Assembly: GCA_022426245.1 (NCBI GenBank)
Contig: JAKMDW010000024.1
Span: 1-34,120 of the forward strand
DNA: 34,120 nt
Direction: 5' to 3'
Source: Alphaproteobacteria bacterium
Lineage (GTDB): Bacteria > Pseudomonadota > Alphaproteobacteria > RS24
The first letter of the stretch is position 1. Each line of letters begins with the position of its first letter. Made by a program: the position numbers and the translations under genes. Shown piece after piece: positions 31,217 through 32,764 of the stretch. The notes under the pieces are model-generated. The model saw nothing but the letters and a program-made list of their open reading frames with translations, had not been told where the DNA came from and did not search any database.

Positions 31217-32764
31217 CTAATCGCTATATTTGCATGCATTAGGGCCACCGTCACATTCATATACCCTGACATAATCCACTAACATTTTATGACCTCCGTC
31301 AGGAAATTCGCTATTAGTGATTGCCCCTCCGATAGAACCGCCAATTGCGAGATTAAGAACAATATGAAAGTCTTGATCAAAGGGCGCATTATCTGAGTTT
31401 CCTACAGCATGTGGGCCATCTCTCCATGATGTTTTTGGGGCTGTCCAATACGGCTGACCATTCAGATACCATCGGATTTCATCAGGATGCCAATCAACTC
31501 GATAAACATTAAACTTTTCCGGCTCCGCGGGGATCCACCTAGTTTGATATGTATGGTGATTAGCCTGGGGACTTAAATAGTGGATAGCACCTCCAATCGA
31601 AGGCCCGCCACTTCCATTCTCCATGATGTCTATTTCACCTGAATTAGGCCAAAAACCATAGGTGTTGTCGGTTGGTAACATCCAAAAGGCTGGGAAGGTT
31701 CCTTGCCCCTTTGGCAATTTTATTCGTGCCTCGAAGCGGCCATATTTAAAGTCTCTTTTAAGTCTCGTGTGGATGCGTCCAGAGGTATATCCCCGAGTGG
31801 CTGGATCACCATAATTGTTCGTGGCCGTATAGGTCTCGATTAAAGCAGTTAACTCTAGATTACCATTACTTACGGAGACGTTATCAGGTCTACCGGTATA
31901 ACATTGTGCCTCACCATTACCGCCACCAAAACATGCCGTCGCTCCTCGGTCATTTAGATCCCTGAGGTACATATCGTTTAACGACCAGTTATTAACGGTA
32001 TCCAGAGAATTTCCGTCAAACTCATCTTGCCAAACCAAATTCCAATCATTACTGCCAGATTGAATCGGGGTCGGGTTAGGAGTTGTACTCGCGCTATCGT
32101 CTGCGCTATTGTAGTCGTCATCGCTGGAATTATCGGTGCTTACACTGCCGATATTTCCAACCACAGCAGTGCTGGGTCTGCTTCTGACCGATTTTGAGTC
32201 ATCTTCGATTAAAAAGCCTATGGCTGCACCAATTGCAAATGGTCCTGCGATTGACCAGAAGCGCCCACTAAAGGGACTTTCGCCTGACGACCCCGATTGT
32301 GATGCATGCCTTTTAGTATCAAGACGCCCATAATGCAGGTTCTTATGATGATCCCTTAGGTGCGAATAGGTAAAAGTAATTCCTACAAACTCATCATCAC
32401 GATTTCCAAAGCCGTCAAGACGGTGTCCGGCTTCAAATGTAAGGCCAAAGGGCAAATGAGCTTTTATCGAATGAGCACCGCCACTTTTCCAGTCTCCAAT
32501 TTTAGATTTAGTTTCAAAAGCCTGGCGGTGATAGCTAAGCTTTGGAAAGTAAGGCACTGCCGGCAAGGGCATTGAGACGTCTAAAAACCGAAGGTCATTT
32601 TCTAATGTCAGTTCTTGAACTTCAGTTCCTCCCCAAAGAGGAAGAACGGTATGTTCAGATCTGTCCGCCGCGTGGGATGAAGCCCCCGCGGCACAAAGTG
32701 CTGCCAAGATAAACAACCGTTTTATCAAAAACCTATCTTTCCACTTACGACTGTTGGCTACCAA
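31217..32764 (-). CDS. secreted glycoside hydrolase family 16 enzyme (laminarinase-like) with unrecognised N-terminal domain
   Basis: The product is 515 residues from TTG 32764; TTG 32728, giving (M)IKRLFILAALCAAG, is the better start for the signal peptide. No ATG exists until residue 65. Residues about 34-165 form a domain I do not recognise. A Gly-rich hydrophobic stretch (about 168-186, SIAGPFAIGAAIGFLI) and a Ser/Asp/Thr linker (about 205-238) follow. The GH16 domain (about 240-503) has GEIDIME (nucleophile Glu377, Asp379, acid/base Glu382), TFPAFWMLP and HIVLNLAIGG, a pattern typical of beta-1,3-glucanases, so laminarin is the likely substrate. It follows the symporter gene with a 7-base overlap. 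Confidence 0.88.
   Translation of the reverse strand: MVANSRKWKDRFLIKRLFILAALCAAGASSHAADRSEHTVLPLWGGTEVQELTLENDLRFLDVSMPLPAVPYFPKLSYHRQAFETKSKIGDWKSGGAHSIKAHLPFGLTFEAGHRLDGFGNRDDEFVGITFTYSHLRDHHKNLHYGRLDTKRHASQSGSSGESPFSGRFWSIAGPFAIGAAIGFLIEDDSKSVRSRPSTAVVGNIGSVSTDNSSDDDYNSADDSASTTPNPTPIQSGSNDWNLVWQDEFDGNSLDTVNNWSLNDMYLRDLNDRGATACFGGGNGEAQCYTGRPDNVSVSNGNLELTALIETYTATNNYGDPATRGYTSGRIHTRLKRDFKYGRFEARIKLPKGQGTFPAFWMLPTDNTYGFWPNSGEIDIMENGSGGPSIGGAIHYLSPQANHHTYQTRWIPAEPEKFNVYRVDWHPDEIRWYLNGQPYWTAPKTSWRDGPHAVGNSDNAPFDQDFHIVLNLAIGGSIGGAITNSEFPDGGHKMLVDYVRVYECDGGPNACKYSD

Follow-up and report, generated by a model that had tools for sequence, protein, structure and literature searches.

The fusion gene and its locus

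The window, by which we mean the whole stretch of 34,120 nucleotides that was analysed, carries on its minus strand an intact open reading frame (31217-32764) that contains the residues cited in an earlier note on this DNA. Judged from the sequence, the more likely start is a TTG at 32728 rather than 32764. The product would then begin with a signal peptide (MIKRLFILAALCAAGASSHA, followed by ADRSEH; 32669-32728, minus strand) for which cleavage is expected after SHA, and the similar signal peptides of homologues end near the same point. At the other end of the protein lies a laminarinase-like GH16 catalytic domain (31220-32044, minus strand). GH16 was the only family that Pfam found in the whole protein (PF00722 at residues 290-446, positions 31427-31897; 65.6 bits against a cut-off of 22). 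Laminarinases and glucanases in the PDB matched residues 239-503 in sequence searches, with E values down to 4e-39, and both the NCBIfam and the PDB sequence matches were confined to the GH16 part. The catalytic E-x-D-x-x-E motif is present as GEIDIME, and E345, D347 and E350 (mature numbering) are invariant in six homologues. The GH16 part also has four invariant cysteines, which suit an oxidising compartment and argue for an exported enzyme. Neither Pfam (E up to 10) nor NCBIfam nor the PDB sequence search matched the first ~200-230 residues. A sodium:solute symporter gene lies upstream on the same strand and runs off the contig (32758-34119); its homologue in a related locus (L013) matches PF00474 with an E value of 9e-61. 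The symporter gene stops ~30 bases before the proposed TTG, and the two genes are probably co-transcribed. A thiC-like gene converges on the fusion gene from the opposite side.

We found seven complete fusion genes in six assemblies, including the one in the window. A second copy lies in the same assembly on contig C99, with 56% identity over 171 residues and the same thiC-like and symporter neighbours, and the other five come from five related assemblies, metagenome-assembled genomes labelled 'Rhodobiaceae bacterium' by NCBI. An eighth fusion gene (L030) is cut at a contig end. All seven complete genes encode the same order of parts: signal peptide, N-terminal domain, hydrophobic segment, Gly- or acid-rich linker and GH16. 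A frameshift that joins two separate genes, which the earlier note had named as a result that would undo its reading, is ruled out by these full-length homologues, all of which have the same one-frame fusion. In all seven cases a sodium:solute symporter gene adjoins the fusion gene. Two loci (L013 and L015; Pfam was run on L013) have the order TonB-dependent receptor, second secreted GH16, symporter and fusion gene, an arrangement suggestive of a beta-glucan utilisation locus. A surface endo-glucanase would make sense beside a receptor, a second GH16 and an SSS symporter.

Two of the homologous loci have features of their own. The C99 copy (L002, 6356 bases), in an assembly of 1.8 Mb with a contamination estimate of 3.5%, could reflect a duplication or a contig from a related species that was binned in. 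The fusion gene of L014 (contig C64 of G001, an assembly in the genus of the window) is near-identical to its counterpart in G022, which belongs to a different genus of the family; by domain, 93-94% of the amino acids are identical, and recent transfer or a misbinned contig could account for this.

Among 28 genomes of the family, the N-terminal domain was found in two genera only, and searches with its profile through the class (385 genomes) and the phylum (398 genomes) gave no relatives outside the family. The weak extra-family matches that were read, to MtaB-like, FlgG-like and other proteins, were attributed to chance. In the genomes searched the domain always stands N-terminal to GH16, and the same strands otherwise occur only in full inverse-autotransporter (IAT) barrels. 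The question raised by the earlier note of whether homologues always carry the same C-terminal enzyme can thus be answered: apart from the full IAT barrels, all that were found carry GH16.

The N-terminal domain and inverse-autotransporter barrels

The first clue to the nature of the N-terminal domain came from weak single-sequence matches to long proteins that Pfam assigns to IAT_beta (E 7e-33 and 1e-33). A profile of the domain matched full barrels of the same family with E values of 7e-12, 7e-11, 2e-7 and 7e-6, each time within the C-terminal part only, and a profile-profile comparison with hhalign gave 97.1% probability and an E value of 4.9e-11 over 78 columns. Reciprocal HMM searches agreed: the IAT profile scored 20-44 bits against the fusion proteins and the domain profile scored 12-45 bits against IATs, with 1,400 shuffled half-barrels reaching 1.9 bits and 1,000 shuffled IATs reaching 5.0 bits. 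These comparisons make it very probable that the segment at 32354-32593 (minus strand) shares ancestry with strands beta8-beta12, which form the C-terminal part of the 12-stranded inverse-autotransporter barrel (IAT_beta, PF11924). The full-length family relatives align with intimin (4e1s) across barrel and linker, and the strands were numbered from this match together with the intimin strand assignments of PMC13078405. The PF11924 model itself did not match the fusion protein up to E 10, and among PDB sequences the domain profile returned chance matches only (E 0.37 or worse). A carbohydrate-binding module was dropped as a candidate after no such match appeared in Pfam or the PDB. The domain that the earlier note called unrecognised is indeed missed by Pfam, NCBIfam and PDB searches, but it does have relatives, in the C-terminal part of inverse-autotransporter barrels. 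The note had counted a match to a known anchoring domain as evidence against its reading; what emerged is a match to half of one.

We examined the fold with AlphaFold2, modelling a single chain. With six sequences as input, the model was a six-stranded meander at mature residues 16-22, 26-34, 43-54, 60-71, 76-84 and 90-99, with pLDDT 69-84 in the strand blocks and a mean of 54 for the whole model; the helices after the strands, including one at mature residues 137-158, have low confidence. A second homologue used as query gave the same six strands plus one of three residues, with pLDDT about 72. The first strand (EVQELTL, 32603-32623, minus strand) is short, follows a conserved W-GG motif and is present in both models. 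It corresponds to beta7 by position only and lies outside the profile-profile match; we infer that it represents this strand. The six predicted strands fill the interval between signal peptide and linker and the gene start leaves no space for others, so a twelve-stranded barrel in one chain is not what this gene encodes. Foldseek found no match at E 0.001 or below with either model. In VIA comparisons, outer-membrane or organelle beta-barrels topped the lists for both models, but at Z scores of 7-8, which is background level; the top rows included a chain of a BAM substrate-assembly complex (Z 7.8), TamA (7.7) and Tom40 (7.1; 2.6 A over 74 residues). Intimin was absent among the VIA rows shown, but little can be concluded from this with models of such quality. 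The structure comparison fits a partial barrel and is suggestive only.

The domain is under purifying selection. Across six homologues it has 26 invariant columns, and its dN/dS in the two closest pairs is 0.19 and 0.10, compared with 0.27 and 0.08 for GH16 and with 0.73 and 0.30 for the linker. The fusion of this domain to GH16 claimed by the earlier note is therefore real, as judged from the intact reading frame, the seven homologues, the invariant columns and these low ratios. At the end of the last predicted strand (beta12; 32372-32401, minus strand) lies the motif GITFTY. All seven homologues have G-x-x-F-x-aromatic/aliphatic here, which is the pattern of the C-terminal beta-signal recognised by BAM. 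In beta11-beta12, 7 of 9 positions on the polar face are invariant and 3 of 10 on the hydrophobic face, as would be expected if the polar surface faced a lumen and the hydrophobic one faced lipid. Strand beta9 is not clearly amphipathic.

The strands are followed by a hydrophobic segment (SIAGPFAIGAAIGFLI; 32207-32254, minus strand), modelled as a helix with low confidence, and then by a disordered linker (32045-32206, minus strand; pLDDT about 30) that is acidic and Ser/Asp-rich in the window protein and Gly-rich in most homologues. The earlier note had described the hydrophobic segment as glycine-zipper-like and suggested that it may insert in, or associate with, the outer membrane. We find that its Gly spacing varies among homologues, which read IAGSVALVAALAGGGGGGG, TAGTIALIALLAGGGG or IVAPLALGLAVGELM; the label is thus an unfair one, and if any part lies in the membrane it is more likely to be the beta-strands. 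The segment occupies the place of the intimin pore linker but has no similarity to it. The pore-linker motif (R-x-x-x-V-x-R-x-N type), which aligns with intimin in the full-length relatives (RRFEKVRRxN), is absent after the last strand in all seven half-barrel proteins. In intimin, this linker sits in the barrel pore. When the family was searched with the hydrophobic segment, the readable non-fusion matches were lipoproteins with a lipobox and poly-Gly and one RTX-like protein, and matches of this kind point to no function for the segment. Separately, three subtilase-like lipoproteins of the family (L098, L100 and L101) have a lipobox followed by 7-9 glycines, a Gly run similar to the linker in the half-barrel proteins.

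Proposed surface display and alternative readings

Collectively, the barrel homology and the beta-signal suggest a model in which a half-barrel displays the enzyme at the outer membrane. Sec would export the protein, and the first 100 or so mature residues would form a six-stranded antiparallel sheet, the counterpart of one half, the C-terminal one, of an inverse-autotransporter barrel. After recognising the beta-signal in the last strand, BAM would insert the sheet in the outer membrane, where a pair of copies would most simply make up a closed barrel of 12 strands (6+6). Its lumen would be threaded, from the periplasm to the outside, by the hydrophobic Ala/Leu/Gly segment and the flexible linker, and the GH16 domain would fold at the surface and cut what is presumably a laminarin-type beta-glucan for uptake. 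Closure by two copies is proposed because no monomeric outer-membrane barrel is known to have as few as six strands. If each chain gives an even number of strands, the closing contacts would be antiparallel, and the extra N-terminal strand would supply the evenness. We rate outer-membrane display of GH16 by the half-barrel at slightly better than an even chance, and the fuller statement, that the half-barrel must oligomerise, most simply as 6+6, and displays a laminarinase, at about an even one. The most specific form, a homodimeric inverse autotransporter in which two six-stranded halves build one barrel and export two enzyme copies through a shared pore, is tentative and on balance doubtful. 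The short first strand, the poor amphipathy of beta9, the moderate confidence of the models, the lack of a significant Foldseek match and the absence of an intimin-type linker all count against display, as does the hydrophobic segment, which is unusual in a Sec-exported outer-membrane protein. The proposal of the earlier note that the enzyme is tethered to or displayed on the outer membrane thus gains from the barrel homology and the beta-signal, but the hydrophobic segment is not borne out as the part that inserts.

The strongest alternative, which we think unlikely though worth weighing, is that the half-barrel has been repurposed and does not span the membrane. It would then serve as a tether in the periplasm or at the inner face of the membrane, or as a ligand-binding sheet, and GH16 would be periplasmic. 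Having six strands only, one of them weakly amphipathic and the first one short, together with the loss of the pore-linker motif, is what this reading would lead one to expect, and the second GH16 encoded nearby would fit as a plain secreted or periplasmic enzyme. A sheet released from membrane insertion would, however, not be expected to keep its beta-signal, the conserved polar and variable hydrophobic faces of beta11 and beta12, or exactly the C-terminal end of the barrel that BAM recognises.

Two further readings seem improbable to a similar degree. In the first, the half-barrel closes with another protein into a mixed, or split, barrel or remains joined to BamA in a hybrid one. A half requires a partner, and two assemblies (G001 and G002) encode both the fusion protein and a passenger-less full IAT, although only the linker and GH16 of the G002 fusion protein are visible, at a contig end. 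Against this, two assemblies that encode the half-barrel, G016 (100% complete) and G019 (99%), gave no other IAT_beta match, and no partner resembling the N-terminal half was seen adjoining the gene. There is thus no need to invoke a full IAT as the partner, and a homo-oligomer is simpler. In the second, the domain serves for export only: BAM would engage the half-barrel, the enzyme would be passed out, and cleavage of the linker would then free it. The long, disordered and poorly conserved linker (dN/dS 0.3-0.7) that precedes the enzyme would suit such a release, but the linker alignment has no conserved cleavage motif, and the passengers of inverse autotransporters stay attached after translocation (PMC6555100).

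Far less probable is an inner-membrane helix, with the N-terminal sheet in the periplasm and the enzyme in the cytosol. The hydrophobic segment includes a 15-residue run with a mean hydropathy of about 2, but it is short; in all seven homologues its 19-residue mean is 1.3-1.8 and its Hessa sum is unfavourable (+3.1 to +5.0 kcal/mol), values that make it a weak stop-transfer signal. A cytosolic endo-glucanase would be senseless beside a TonB-dependent receptor gene, and the four cysteines of GH16 likewise speak against this topology. The view of the earlier note that a cytosolic GH16 makes no sense is therefore upheld, by these cysteines and by the poor stop-transfer segment. Equally remote is a functionless gene wreck, a decayed inverse autotransporter joined by accident to GH16; the protein does lack one half of the barrel as well as the linker, but the reading is already disfavoured by conservation, with low dN/dS (0.10-0.19) and invariant columns in the domain and with a fusion that is shared by two genera, a separate signal peptide being present in each.

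If the half-barrel does insert in the outer membrane, then an inverse-autotransporter barrel cut to half still anchors, which would bear on how barrels evolve by gain and loss of hairpins and on the fewest strands that BAM needs. It would also place a polysaccharide-degrading enzyme on an export route whose known passengers are mostly adhesive, offer a short N-terminal tag for displaying enzymes at the surface and add a further way in which marine bacteria keep laminarinases there. If the homodimer is correct, it would be a type V architecture without a report in the literature searched, and a monomeric barrel halved into an oligomeric one would have been caught within a single bacterial family.

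Comparison with known systems

As an enzyme, the protein shares its catalytic domain and GEIDIME motif with GH16 laminarinases (e.g. PDB 3iln, 4crq and 2vy0). The N-terminal anchor is an addition here; the solved homologues match the catalytic domain alone.

Inverse autotransporters (type Ve; intimin and invasin) have 12 strands, typically carry Ig-like or lectin-like passengers and keep the passenger attached once it is translocated (PMC6555100). The fusion protein has in common with them the sequence homology in beta8-beta12, an N-terminal anchor with a C-terminal passenger, a Sec signal peptide as read from the sequence and the beta-signal of the last strand. It differs in having six strands rather than twelve, no intimin-type pore linker, no Pfam match and an enzyme, GH16, in place of an Ig-like, lectin-like or similar adhesive passenger. 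Since it departs from the class in the number of strands in one chain, the linker motif, the type of passenger and the Pfam match, we would not class it as type Ve; it is a relative that may work alike. In a literature search of partial coverage, neither a glycoside hydrolase carried by an inverse autotransporter nor a halved barrel was reported. The six alphaproteobacterial IAT passenger proteins read in a phylum sample (L079, L080, L081, L090, L078 and L082) have long repetitive passengers that by eye look like right-handed beta-helices, and none has GH16.

The closest relatives of the half-barrel are the passenger-less full IAT barrels of the same family (L009, L010, L011, L034 and L035), which are its likely source. 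These differ from it in having 12 strands, the linker motif, about 300 residues and no passenger in cis. Like L077 from another alphaproteobacterial family, they end after the pore linker, and in each case the gene directly downstream, on the same strand, encodes a secreted protein that contains Cys and has no Pfam family over the cut-off where scanned. The downstream proteins are weakly alike (E 7e-8 for L009/L035, others weaker), and barrel and downstream gene are possibly a two-gene inverse autotransporter.

A further likeness, to the trimeric autotransporters (type Vc), is one of architecture and carries no claim of sequence similarity. YadA has a C-terminal anchor and forms a trimer to which each chain gives four strands. 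If the display model is right, each chain of the fusion protein would likewise give part of a 12-stranded barrel.
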